Origin: Devosia sp. SL43
GTDB lineage: Bacteria; Pseudomonadota; Alphaproteobacteria; Rhizobiales; Devosiaceae
NCBI RefSeq assembly: GCF_021729885.1
Contig: NZ_CP063401.1
Location: 3,898,501-3,962,500 of the forward strand
Reading direction: 5' to 3'
DNA: 64,000 nucleotides
Below are positions 1,593-55,650 of this stretch, one piece after another (the stretch's first letter is position 1; every line of letters starts with the position of its first letter). The position numbers and the translations under genes are program-made. The notes beneath the pieces were generated by a model. That model was not told the origin of the DNA. It did not search any database and saw nothing but the letters and a program-made list of their open reading frames with translations.

Positions 1593-1724
1593 GTGCCCGA
1601 CCTCGTGGTTCGAGGCTCGCGAAGAGCTCGCACCTCACCATGAGGCCTCCAAGAACACGGAGTGCCAAGTAGGCCTCATAGTGAGGTGGGAGCGCAGCGA
1701 CCCTCGAACCACGAGGGCGTGGCA
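1593..1724. repeat. Palindromic repeat family A, copy 1
   Basis: This is an element of about 132 bp with nested inverted arms. The outer arms contain CCTCGTGGTTCGAGG and CCTCGAACCACGAGG, and the inner arms are based on CACCTCACCATGAGG. Two further copies lie at 51348-51479 and 51798-51932. The left spacer CTCGCGAAGAGCTCG is identical here and in the copy at 51798. It fills the gap between the permease and the hydantoinase gene inside an otherwise tight operon and could fold into one long hairpin in the mRNA. Confidence 0.85.
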
Positions 1725-50630: not shown

Positions 50631-50690
50631 CATGTTGTGGCCAGATTGGCTGGTGCGCGAGGCACTGTCTAGCCTAGGATGGGCCGCATC

Positions 50691-51344
50691 ATGACCGACA
50701 CCCTTATCGCCAAAGAGACTGCCGACTCGTTCTGGGCACGCGTTCGCGCGGCGCTGGTCGGGTCGCGACCCGCGCCGAACGATCGGCCGCCCGCCTATGG
50801 CCAGGCGGCGATTGCCCGTTCGCTTGGCATGAAGCCGCGGCTGGGCGCACGGATCGAGGAAGAGCTTGTCGCCGGCTGGAATCACGCCGCGGCTCGGCGG
50901 GTATCGATGAGCCTGCTGGTGGTCGAGATCGACCGGATGGCAGATTATTTTGCCGCCTATGGCAAGGCCGATACCGACGACTGTGTTCTGGCAGTGATGC
51001 GGGCAGTGACCGACAAGCTGCCGCGGCCGGGCGATACCTGCCTGCGACTGGGGCGCGCCACCTTTGTGATCGTGCTGTCCGATCTGCCGATGCTGATGGC
51101 CCGCGCCTGCGCGACCAAGATCGCCGATGCGGTGCGCGAACTGAACCTGCCGCACAAGGAAAGTCATGCCGGCATCGTGACCGTGAGTACCGGTCTGGCG
51201 GTGGGCAACCCGCAGGGCGGCTATGACAAGAAGTTCTTCGAAACGGCGGCCGAAGCGCTGAAGAAGGCGCAGCGCAAGGGGCTGGGCCGGATCGAGGCAG
51301 TGGACCTGCGTCCGGCGCAGGAGCGCAAGCGGAAGGCGGCTTGA
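50691..51344 (+). CDS. Degenerate GGDEF-domain protein
   Basis: This is a 217-residue protein. Residues ~60-205 have the diguanylate-cyclase fold: SMSLLVVEIDRMADYFAAYG, DDCVLAVMRAVTDKL and the late VSTGLAVGN. The catalytic GGDEF signature is replaced by LGRATFVIV, so synthesis of cyclic di-GMP is unlikely. No EAL domain or transmembrane part is present. It may bind GTP or act as an adaptor. The ATG at 50691 has AGGA at a workable distance; 50679 is an alternative. Confidence 0.75.
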   Translation: MTDTLIAKETADSFWARVRAALVGSRPAPNDRPPAYGQAAIARSLGMKPRLGARIEEELVAGWNHAAARRVSMSLLVVEIDRMADYFAAYGKADTDDCVLAVMRAVTDKLPRPGDTCLRLGRATFVIVLSDLPMLMARACATKIADAVRELNLPHKESHAGIVTVSTGLAVGNPQGGYDKKFFETAAEALKKAQRKGLGRIEAVDLRPAQERKRKAA

Positions 51345-51347
51345 ACG

Positions 51348-51479
51348 GTGCCACGCCTCGTGGTTCGAGGTTCGCAAGGGCTCGCACCTCACCATGAGGG
51401 CTACTGTGAGCTCAATGCACCATCAGCCCTCATGGTGAGGTGCGCTTCTTCAGCGCCTCGAACCACGAGGGCGTGGCAC
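51348..51479. repeat. Palindromic repeat family A, copy 2
   Basis: This element has the same nested layout as the copy at 1593: outer arms with GTGCCACGCCTCGTGG and CCACGAGGGCGTGGCAC, inner arms CACCTCACCATGAGGGCT and AGCCCTCATGGTGAGGTG. The stop codon of the broken GIY-YIG gene shares its last base. Its spacer sequences are more diverged than those of the other two copies. Confidence 0.88.
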
Positions 51480-51768
51480 TATTTGCGCTTCGGCCTGCTC
51501 GCCAAATCGGGCAGCCCCTCATAGTCGCCCCTGATCAAGGCTTCCTTCTTCCGCCGAGACCATTTCTTGACCTGTTGTTCGCGCGCGAATGCGTCGATGA
51601 GACGCTCGTAGTATTCGGTGTGGACCAATGTCACTGGCGTGCGCGTCGAGGTGTAACCTTCGACCACCCGCTCGTTGTGTTCCCATGTGCGCTGATCCGG
51701 CTCCTTCTGGGTCGAACCCACATAGTAGGAGCCGTCTGAAGACAGCGGATGTAGACGTAGGCGTGCAT
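51479..51768 (-). pseudogene. GIY-YIG endonuclease-like gene with a frameshift near its start
   Basis: The open frame 51479-51721 encodes the GIY-YIG C-terminal part, with YYVGSTQKEPDQRTWEHNE and LVHTEYYERLIDAFAREQQ. The expected start of the domain lies in another frame. From the ATG at 51768 one reads MHAYVYIRCLQ, and the continuation SDGSYYVGST appears only after a shift at about 51735-51750. So the N-terminal GIY-YIG signature is split by a one- or two-base indel. The gene lies exactly between two palindromic repeats. A sequencing error would give the same picture. Confidence 0.72.
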
Positions 51769-51797
51769 GGCCGGAGTATGGCGCAGGTCACACCATT

Positions 51798-51932
51798 GTG
51801 CCACGCCCTCGTGGTTCGAGGCTCGCGAAGAGCTCGCACCTCACCATGAGGGCTGTTGTTAGTGCTTTGTATCAGTAGCCCTCATGGTGAGGCGGGAGCC
51901 CTTGCGACCCTCGAACCACGAGGGCGTGGCAC
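51798..51932. repeat. Palindromic repeat family A, copy 3
   Basis: This is the best-preserved copy: outer arms GTGCCACGCCCTCGTGG and CCACGAGGGCGTGGCAC with TTCGAGG/CCTCGAA inside, inner arms CACCTCACCATGAGGGCT and AGCCCTCATGGTGAGG. The left spacer is identical to that at 1593. It has the same orientation as the copy at 51348, 318 bases away. Confidence 0.9.
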
Positions 51933-52011
51933 AACAGCCGTGGCTTGCCACTCCGCCCATCACCCATTATGAGAGCCGTCCCTTTGGCGCCCGGCGCCGG
52001 CTTCCCCATGG

Positions 52012-53277
52012 ATGATTGGTATGACCCTCGCTTGCGGCCTCGACTTCGGCACGTCCAATTCGACCATGGGGCGCGTCGGTGCGGATGGGATTCCGCAATT
52101 GCTGGCGCTCGAGGATGGCAAGCAGACCATTCCCAGCGTACTGTTCTTTGGCTTCGAGGATGATGCGATCCATTTTGGCCGCGAGGCGGTGGCCGAGTAT
52201 GTGACAGGTGCCGACGGGCGGCTGATGCGGTCGCTCAAGAGCGTGCTGGGCACGGCGCTGATCGGCGACAGCACGCGGGTGCGGGCGCGCAGCTATGGGT
52301 TTATCGAGATCCTGGGCATCTTCATTGCCGAGGTGAAGCGCAGGGCCGAGGCGGAGCTGGGTGAGGCGGTGGACACGGTGGTCTGCGGGCGGCCGGTGCA
52401 TTTCGTCGATGACGATCCGGTGGCCGATGCCGAGGCGCAGAAGCAGCTCGAAGGCGCGGTGCGGGCGCAGGGCTTTGCCCATGTCGACTTCCAGTTCGAG
52501 CCGATCGCGGCGGCGCTCGACTACGAGCGGCAAGTCAATTCGGAGCGGCTGGCGTTGATCGTCGACCTGGGCGGCGGTACGTCGGACTTTTCGGTGATCC
52601 GGGTTTCGCCCGAACGGGCAAAGGCGGTGGACCGGGGCGGCGATATCCTGTCGACGGCGGGCGTGCATGTCGGCGGCACCGATTTCGACCGGCTGCTCTC
52701 GATGACCAAGGTGATGCCGGAGCTGGGGCTGGGCACCATGACGCGCGACGGCAAGCGGCACCTGCCGGTGGCGCCATACTATGATCTGTCGACCTGGCAC
52801 CGGATCAACCGGCTCTACAACGCCCAGGCCTTGCGCGACCTGCGCGGCACCATGCGGGAAGCGCGGGCGCCCGAGCGGGTGGACATGATGATCGAGCTGA
52901 TCGAGGATCGGTTGGGGCACCGGCTGGTCGGCGCGGTCGAGGCGGCCAAGATCGAACTCTCCGATGCCGACGCGACGGCCTTCGCCTTTCCGGTGCGCGA
53001 CCGGCTGGTCGAAACCGAGATTGATATCGGTGACCTGACACGGGCGCTGGCGGCATCGGTGCAGCGCATCGAGGACACGATCGCCGAAACGCTGAAGCGG
53101 GCCGGGGTCGATATCGGCTCCATCGACAGCCTGATCCTGACCGGCGGCTCGACCCAGGTGCCTGCGATTGCCGGGCGGTTGAGGGCGCTGTTTCCGGAGG
53201 CGGAACTGGTGCGCACGGACGTGCTGGGAAGCGTGGGCCTTGGTCTGGCGATGGATGCTAAGCGGAAGTTTGGCTGA
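52012..53277 (+). CDS. Hsp70-family chaperone-like ATPase, YegD type
   Basis: This 421-residue protein (418 if the ATG at 52021 is used) has the actin-fold ATPase only: phosphate 1 loop CGLDFGTSNSTMG, phosphate 2 loop LIVDLGGGTSDFSV and the adenosine motif LILTGGSTQVPAI. The substrate-binding domain of DnaK is absent, as in YegD. It probably hydrolyses ATP in the cytoplasm. The role of YegD proteins is not settled. No grpE or dnaJ nearby. Confidence 0.9.
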   Translation: MIGMTLACGLDFGTSNSTMGRVGADGIPQLLALEDGKQTIPSVLFFGFEDDAIHFGREAVAEYVTGADGRLMRSLKSVLGTALIGDSTRVRARSYGFIEILGIFIAEVKRRAEAELGEAVDTVVCGRPVHFVDDDPVADAEAQKQLEGAVRAQGFAHVDFQFEPIAAALDYERQVNSERLALIVDLGGGTSDFSVIRVSPERAKAVDRGGDILSTAGVHVGGTDFDRLLSMTKVMPELGLGTMTRDGKRHLPVAPYYDLSTWHRINRLYNAQALRDLRGTMREARAPERVDMMIELIEDRLGHRLVGAVEAAKIELSDADATAFAFPVRDRLVETEIDIGDLTRALAASVQRIEDTIAETLKRAGVDIGSIDSLILTGGSTQVPAIAGRLRALFPEAELVRTDVLGSVGLGLAMDAKRKFG

Positions 53278-53981: not shown

Positions 53982-54404
53982 ATGGACAGGCAAGAACGAG
54001 GCGACACCCGTGACTGGGCGAGTATCCGGCACGCTTATGAAAATGGCGACGGGACGATCAAGCAAATCTGCGAACGCTTCGGCGTCACCAAGGGATCGCT
54101 GGAACATCGTCAGCGGGTGGATCGGTGGATCCCGCGACTGACGACCAATGCGAACAACCAGTCGGTGCTGCTGGCCCGCCTGTTTGCTGTGCTCGAAGCG
54201 CAGGTGACCAAGCTGTCCAACACCAAGGGCGAGACACTGGGCGACAAGGAGGCCAACCAATTGAGCGAGATGATCAAGAACTTCGACAAGCTGAGCACGA
54301 TCGAGGCAGCCGACACCAGCAAGGGTGGTCCGGCGCAGAAGAAAGACATGCGCGACCTGCGCGACAAGCTGGCCAAGCGAATTGCCCAGTTCAAGCGCCG
54401 TTGA
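53982..54404 (+). CDS. GTA gp1-like small terminase subunit
   Basis: This 140-residue DNA-binding protein has an N-terminal helix-turn-helix (SIRHAYENGDGTIKQICERF, then GVTKGSLEHR) followed by a helical region with a coiled-coil-like stretch (KKDMRDLRDKLAKRIAQF). Size, position directly before the large terminase and the HTH fit a small terminase of the RcGTA gp1 type. It would bring DNA to the packaging motor. This is the first gene of the gene transfer agent cluster. Confidence 0.75.
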   Translation: MDRQERGDTRDWASIRHAYENGDGTIKQICERFGVTKGSLEHRQRVDRWIPRLTTNANNQSVLLARLFAVLEAQVTKLSNTKGETLGDKEANQLSEMIKNFDKLSTIEAADTSKGGPAQKKDMRDLRDKLAKRIAQFKRR

Positions 54405-54438
54405 GGTCGACGCCGAGTCGCGGGCCGAAGTGGCGGCC

Positions 54439-55650
54439 ATGCTGGACGAGGCGGTCGAGACGAAATTCTACGATTGGCGCCACTGGTCATACTCACAGCA
54501 ACGAGAGCCCGCAGGCGACTGGACAACCTGGCTGTTTATGGGTGGTCGGGGCTGTGGCAAGACAAGGACGGGCGCCGAGTGGGTGCGCCAGCTGGCTAAC
54601 GATCGGGTATCGCCGATTGCGCTGGTTGGCGAGACGATGAATGAGGCACTGGCCATCATGGTGCGCGGGGAGAGCGGTATTTTCGCCGTTTGCCCCGAGG
54701 AGGAACGGCCAAAGCTGCGCGGGCACCAGCTGATCTGGAAGAACGGCGTCGAGGCGACGCTGATGTCGGCGTCCGATCCCGACCGGTTTCGCGGACCACA
54801 ATTTGCCGCCGCATGGTGTGATGAAGTGGCCAAATGGCCAGATGCGGAGGCGGCGTGGGACCAACTGCAGTTCGGGCTTCGGCTGGGGGACAGGCCAAGG
54901 CAGCTGGCCACGACGACACCCCGGCCGATTGCCTTGCTGCGACGCCTGCTGGCCGACCCGAAGACGGTCACCAGCCACATGAAGACCAATGACAACCACG
55001 CCCATCTGGCGCCGGACTTTATGGAGGCGGTGGTTGGGCGCTATCGCGGGTCGATCCTGGGGCGGCAGGAGCTGGATGGCGAGCTGATCGAGGATATGCC
55101 CGGGGCGCTGTGGCAGCGCGGGATGTTCCGGCGGTTCGAGGGTGGCGAGATCAGGCGCATTCTGGTGGCGGTCGATCCGCCGGTAACGGGGCATGAGCGC
55201 TCCGATGCCTGCGGGATTATCGTGGCCGGGCGCGTTGGCGACGGGGCGGTGGTGCTGGAGGATCGGACGGTGAGACAAGTTGCGCCGCTCGATTGGGCGC
55301 GGCGGGCGGTGGCGGCCTATGAGGCGCATGGCGCAGACGCCATCGTGGTCGAGGTGAACCAGGGCGGCGATCTGGTGCAGGCGCTGATTGCGCAGGTCGA
55401 TGGCAAAGTGCCGGTGCGGCCGGTGCGGGCGAACCGGGGCAAGTGGCTGCGGGCGGAACCGGTGGCGGCGCTCTATGGGCGCGGGCTGGTGCGCCATGTG
55501 GATGGGCTGACCGAGCTGGAGGACGAGATGTGTGCGTTTGGGATGGACGGGCGCAGTGATGGGCATTCGCCGGACCGGGTGGATGCGCTGGTGTGGGCGG
55601 TGACCGAATTGCTGTTGAATGAGAGTGAGCCGCGGGTGCGGAGGCTGTAA
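54439..55650 (+). CDS. GTA gp2-like large terminase (DNA packaging ATPase-nuclease)
   Basis: This is a protein of about 403 residues with Walker A GGRGCGKT (35-42), Walker B-like AAWCDEVAKW, and in the C-terminal RNase H-like nuclease ILVAVDPPVTGHERSD, DAIVVEVNQGGD and SPDRVDALVWAVTEL. It powers DNA filling of capsids. The ATG at 54439 is used. The GTG at 54430 is equally plausible. The frame extends upstream to 54325 but that part overlaps the small terminase gene. In GTAs this enzyme packages any host DNA. Confidence 0.9.
   Translation: MLDEAVETKFYDWRHWSYSQQREPAGDWTTWLFMGGRGCGKTRTGAEWVRQLANDRVSPIALVGETMNEALAIMVRGESGIFAVCPEEERPKLRGHQLIWKNGVEATLMSASDPDRFRGPQFAAAWCDEVAKWPDAEAAWDQLQFGLRLGDRPRQLATTTPRPIALLRRLLADPKTVTSHMKTNDNHAHLAPDFMEAVVGRYRGSILGRQELDGELIEDMPGALWQRGMFRRFEGGEIRRILVAVDPPVTGHERSDACGIIVAGRVGDGAVVLEDRTVRQVAPLDWARRAVAAYEAHGADAIVVEVNQGGDLVQALIAQVDGKVPVRPVRANRGKWLRAEPVAALYGRGLVRHVDGLTELEDEMCAFGMDGRSDGHSPDRVDALVWAVTELLLNESEPRVRRL

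Follow-up and report, generated by a model that had tools for sequence, protein, structure and literature searches.

A short GIY-YIG nuclease gene between hairpin repeats of its own: a probable REPtron-like mobile system with a decayed copy in Devosia sp. SL43

The window analysed here, a stretch of 64,000 nucleotides from Devosia sp. SL43, contains an intergenic slot that holds a whole unit of a nuclease gene and two bracketing palindromes, and it contains a third palindrome of the same family that stands alone. The features are as follows:

51345..52011, no strand, intergenic slot with the whole nuclease and palindrome unit
51348..51479, no strand, palindrome bracket 1, an inverted pair of hairpin units (132 bp, outer ends GTGCC...GGCAC)
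51479..51768, minus strand, short GIY-YIG nuclease pseudogene, frameshifted near its start (PF01541)
51798..51932, no strand, palindrome bracket 2, of the bracket 1 family (135 bp)
1593..1724, no strand, solitary palindrome of the bracket family

The slot has a GGDEF-type gene (50679-51344) on one side and an Hsp70-like gene (52012-53277) on the other, both judged by eye, and a large terminase gene of phage or GTA type, likewise judged by eye, is found at 54325-55650. The first-pass annotation had described a broken GIY-YIG gene between two of three palindromes, and the positions of all three proved to be right. The nuclease assignment was borne out by the PF01541 match (30 bits, and 40.9 bits in another search), and the break by comparison with intact orthologues, as the first strand, MHAYVYIRC..., is out of frame with the remainder, GSTQKEPDQRTWEHN...; the gene is thus a pseudogene. 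Its stop codon at 51479-51481 overlaps bracket 1, as had been noticed, by a single base. Intact counterparts exist in two relatives (L020 in G008 and L056 in G003), and both are bracketed by the hairpin family of the window unit. Because the nuclease of this CCTCGTGG... family is frameshifted in its own genome, its hairpin family has probably ceased to spread there.

All three palindromes are near-perfect hairpins when folded as DNA, with −59.4 kcal/mol (z −12.3 against shuffles) for 51348-51479, −63.4 kcal/mol (z −13.5) for 51798-51932, and −52.8 kcal/mol (z −11.1) for the solitary copy at 1593-1724. An alignment of ten copies resolved the 132-bp palindrome into an inverted pair of imperfect hairpins of about 55-60 nt, in each of which an outer CCCTCGTGGTTCGAG is imperfectly paired with an inner CTCACCATGAGGG, and by analogy this arrangement of paired inverted hairpins is REPIN-like. 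The two brackets had been described as lying in the same orientation on either side of the gene. Their placement holds, but the orientation has little meaning, since each copy is nearly the reverse complement of itself (82.6% on the minus strand versus 81.5% on the plus strand). Solitary copies had also been expected elsewhere, and the 132-bp query indeed found 40 scored places in its own genome at E < 1e-35, and the 18-nt palindrome core had 156 matches there versus 0 for the reversed pattern, copy numbers here being derived from similarity searches and from sequence stretches of the genome. The window palindromes are therefore members of a large dispersed family, far above chance. Half of the family copies inspected (15/30) are located between converging genes.

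Besides UvrC, five short GIY-YIG genes are present in the genome of Devosia sp. SL43, and four of the five have a bracket on either side, drawn in each case from a separate palindrome family. When 450 bp on each side of short genes were compared in this genome and 40 relatives, a matching repeat on both sides was found for 46/60 short GIY-YIG genes versus 0/88 neighbour genes, with 2/117 in the random-place control and 1/27 for the ParE toxin genes, which are another small dispersed family; Fisher tests of the 46/60 against controls gave 4e-26 and 5e-11. An enrichment of GIY-YIG genes near the repeat, which the first-pass annotation had proposed as a test of its reading, is thus clearly present. 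No matching repeat pair was found at the other 14 of the 60 genes. The short SLX1-like GIY-YIG paralogues of the same genomes were not bracketed (0/5). The nearest folds of the nuclease are nevertheless those of UPF0213 and of the branch-cutting nuclease Slx1, which acts on branched DNA, so that the enzyme resembles this kind in fold and differs from it in its repeat brackets. The short GIY-YIG nucleases have kept the catalytic positions Y, R, E and N, the window copy itself being frameshifted, and a search of NCBIfam returned no family for the three proteins that were tried.

Several further arrangements were seen around small nuclease genes. A clade of GIY-YIG proteins of about 80 residues (L012, L040, L048, L070 and L075), most of them ending in GRAFAKK.., has no flanking palindromes, and in Devosia sp. 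SL43 a 110-bp tandem repeat follows the gene of this type. At another locus (L009:1797-2952), a tandem array with a period of about 255 bp combines a palindrome with a 3′ remnant of the adjoining GIY-YIG gene. DUF559 (PF04480) endonuclease genes of congeners and of relatives from the same order are palindrome-bracketed as well (L256-L285), namely 13/26 at ≥40 bits versus 1/27 ParE genes (p 1e-4), and their palindromes belong to another sequence class (CCTCTCCC...GGGGAGAGG and GGTGAGGGG). DUF559 endonucleases with their own palindromes are thus a possible second nuclease-palindrome pairing.

The bracketing is not confined to Devosia and its relatives. A scan of genome contigs yielded 80 nuclease homologues, and with 300-bp flanks 50/76 homologues were bracketed versus 2/106 control genes. 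The pairing of the enzyme with its own hairpin was seen in about a dozen bacterial phyla; the hosts include, among the Proteobacteria, Alpha-, Beta- and Gammaproteobacteria, and further Thermodesulfobacteriota, Myxococcota, Nitrospirota, Nitrospinota, Elusimicrobiota, Bipolaricaulota, Chloroflexota, Bacteroidota and Doudnabacteria, where single assignments may be wrong because many of the homologues come from MAGs. Near-alike nucleases on short branches occur in Bipolaricaulota and Nitrospinota MAGs (L170, L172 and L174), either by recent transfer or by a binning error. Plasmid records add cases from Planktothrix and Spirosoma, read by eye, and from S. meliloti and N. gonorrhoeae. The commonest hairpin unit across the phyla is GTCATTCCGGCGNANGCCGGAATCCAG, and in the simplest layout a unit is followed by the gene and an inverted unit, with GTCA pointing outward. 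Such units occur at 3.9 per kb beside the nuclease gene versus 0.12 per kb elsewhere in the loci. Three genomes (G099, G100 and G103) have only two matches each to the hairpin pattern, a facing pair 355-466 bp apart, and the brackets of their nuclease genes are separated by just this distance. A tblastn match identified a GIY-YIG gene of N. gonorrhoeae that is bracketed by dRS3 units, the Neisseria homologue sharing 54% identity with a relative of the window enzyme that is itself bracketed, and in S. meliloti Ak57 a GIY-YIG gene is bracketed by two-palindrome repeats.

Nuclease and hairpin vary together. Across genomes the similarity of the nucleases correlates with that of the hairpins (Mantel r 0.55), and 2000 permutations reached a maximum of 0.16, or of 0.20 when shuffling was done inside host groups; at the level of sequence similarity, this shows one hairpin family per nuclease clade. 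Copy number tends to follow the presence of the enzyme, as at least 30 hairpin copies were found in 8/10 congeners with the cognate nuclease versus 6/40 without it (p 2e-4, two families pooled). Four congeners carry many copies and no cognate nuclease (G010, G015 and G023 for family A, G013 for family B), and we read these as genomes with orphaned repeats; a model in which the nuclease mobilises the hairpins therefore needs nuclease loss after the spread.

Empty sites in related genomes, which had been suggested as a further check, were found both for the unit and for gene-less copies. In 27 congeners, the intergenic region orthologous to the window slot is 78-511 bp long and lacks the unit, and several of these congeners carry other palindromes there. 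For 9/10 solitary copies, the two flanks, once joined, give an uninterrupted alignment with congeners, as seen in base-level views. At 30 copies no consistent target-site duplication was found, nor a defined chemistry of integration, and in lacking the duplication the element differs from an insertion sequence or a MITE. Seven Sphingobium plasmid records have the cassette in the interval from fnrL to a response-regulator gene, and TomTYG64 and TomTYG74 have one palindrome at the cassette spot, which reads GTCACCCCGGGTCAAGCCCGGGGTGAC in TomTYG64 and is composed of the outer halves of the left and right brackets, joined to each other. This pair of states can be read either as gain or as loss of the cassette. 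The alternation of hairpin-gene-hairpin and single palindrome in Sphingobium can be followed at L317:1426-1814, L319 and L320. Two further candidates for empty cassette sites were rejected, Shinella H4-D48 because its flanks are too divergent to be read, and Sinorhizobium sp. M103, considered for the S. meliloti cassette, because the nuclease is present there too, with a different count of tandem repeats. Upstream of the nuclease, the Sinorhizobium loci L201 and L232 have unequal numbers of tandem two-palindrome repeats, with three copies versus one.

How does this arrangement relate to systems that are already known? The first-pass annotation knew of no described mobile system of this form, and this was too strong, as the Ssn family reportedly already pairs nucleases with Neisseria repeats. 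Ssn, reportedly described in Nature Communications in 2025, is said to be a family of site-specific single-stranded nucleases within the GIY-YIG superfamily, with the Ssn of Neisseria meningitidis and its NTS repeats as the example; the enzyme reportedly cuts ssDNA and modulates transformation, and thousands of homologues are said to exist. The nucleases described here are likewise short single-domain GIY-YIG enzymes with the catalytic residues, apart from the frameshifted window copy, and the Neisseria homologue is likewise linked to a repeated target, the dRS3 brackets. What our analysis would add to this account of Ssn is the bracketing rule across phyla, the co-variation of nuclease and hairpin, and the turnover at sites as a mobile system. 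The suggested kinship to REP sequences and their RAYT transposases gained support. In the REPtron, TnpA-REP/RAYT is associated with REP and REPIN repeats (PMC8266576, PMC3116915), and we see the same association of an enzyme gene with cognate imperfect palindromes, and the same dispersal of solitary and paired inverted copies in intergenic space. Unlike in the REPtron, the enzyme is a GIY-YIG hydrolase and not a Y1/HuH transposase, and the units do not carry the GTAG/CGTC foot tag but begin with GTCA, or with GTGCC in the window family. The GTCA head is shared with the hairpins of Neisseria dRS3/NIME; dRS3 repeats are ATTCCC(N8)GGGAAT sequences with up to about 700 copies, for which a phage integrase has been suggested as the recombinase (PMC3898611, PMC9778887). 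In the literature that we searched, no paper ties dRS3 repeats to a GIY-YIG gene, and none links GIY-YIG enzymes with palindromes, REP, RAYT, REPIN or dRS3. The two-palindrome repeats around the S. meliloti Ak57 gene resemble the RIME of Rhizobium/Sinorhizobium, and they may be the published RIME palindromes.

We consider it likely that these observations reflect a REPtron-like two-part mobile system that is run by an Ssn-type GIY-YIG nuclease and of which the window contains a decayed copy. The element would combine a small single-domain GIY-YIG gene with a pair of brackets, the hairpins that its product recognises, and these hairpins could also be dispersed without the gene, as solitary copies, in the manner of REPs and their RAYT transposase. 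The nuclease may recognise the hairpin in single-stranded form, on the lagging strand or in incoming DNA, and may cut at it, and host replication or repair would then copy or paste either the hairpin alone or the complete hairpin-gene-hairpin cassette elsewhere in intergenic DNA. Strand joining would have to come from the host, since GIY-YIG enzymes hydrolyse DNA and we know of no strand-joining activity among them. We thus infer from genomic patterns that the nuclease itself is the mover of the repeats.

Another view of the strict matching of nuclease and hairpin is that an Ssn-type nuclease serves resident genome management, using the hairpins as cutting marks on incoming or replicating ssDNA to tune transformation or recombination, with some other process dispersing the repeats and with the gene kept beside them because the two act jointly. 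This explanation needs the same matching, and it agrees with the reported Ssn work in Neisseria and with the dRS3 units that flank the N. gonorrhoeae gene. It is nonetheless unlikely, as it leaves unexplained why the gene is positioned precisely between two units, why the cassette comes and goes at orthologous places, and why there are genomes whose only two matched hairpins are the brackets of the nuclease gene. The Sphingobium plasmids bring homing to mind, in which the nuclease would cut a solitary hairpin and gene conversion would copy the gene alone into a pre-existing repeat, for TomTYG64 and TomTYG74 have a single symmetric palindrome exactly where their relatives have hairpin, gene and hairpin. 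Yet the gene-less hairpins are themselves present or absent at orthologous sites, and a bracket that retained the target would be recut, so that we regard homing as somewhat more doubtful still.

The shared architecture of paired inverted, REPIN-like hairpins would also fit ordinary REPs that are moved by a RAYT (Y1/HuH) transposase with the GIY-YIG gene as a passenger. We rejected this for the genus, as the Y1/RAYT transposase domain PF01797 had 0 matches in Devosia sp. SL43 and 24 congeners; PF01797 matches were found in only 5/16 other families, and the outer tag is GTCA and not GTAG or CGTC, which makes such an origin very improbable in general. Even less credible is a chance landing of a small gene among dense intergenic palindromes: congeners do have a hot-spot of repeats at the place of the window slot, but the neighbour-gene (0/88), random-place, ParE (1/27) and SLX1-like (0/5) controls reject this reading, and the hairpins match the nuclease clade.

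The preferred reading, a nuclease-driven two-part system, has consequences beyond Devosia. Descriptions of the dRS3 repeats, of rhizobial mosaic elements and of the abundant GTCATTCC... palindromes have come genus by genus, without an established mobiliser, and a cognate nuclease amid such repeats in about a dozen phyla offers one candidate cause and makes enzyme-repeat assignments testable. The pairing across many phyla suggests that the nucleases drive the spread of some of these long-known repeats. Whether small GIY-YIG nucleases constitute a second class of REP-type mobilisers, unrelated to RAYT, that generates and spreads GTCA-headed hairpins including the Neisseria dRS3 and the rhizobial two-palindrome repeats, with DUF559 as a third class, is in our judgement evenly balanced. 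If true, REP-type repeat systems would have had more than a single origin, among nucleases unrelated to each other, and the flanking DNA would directly show the specificity of many nuclease-target pairs.
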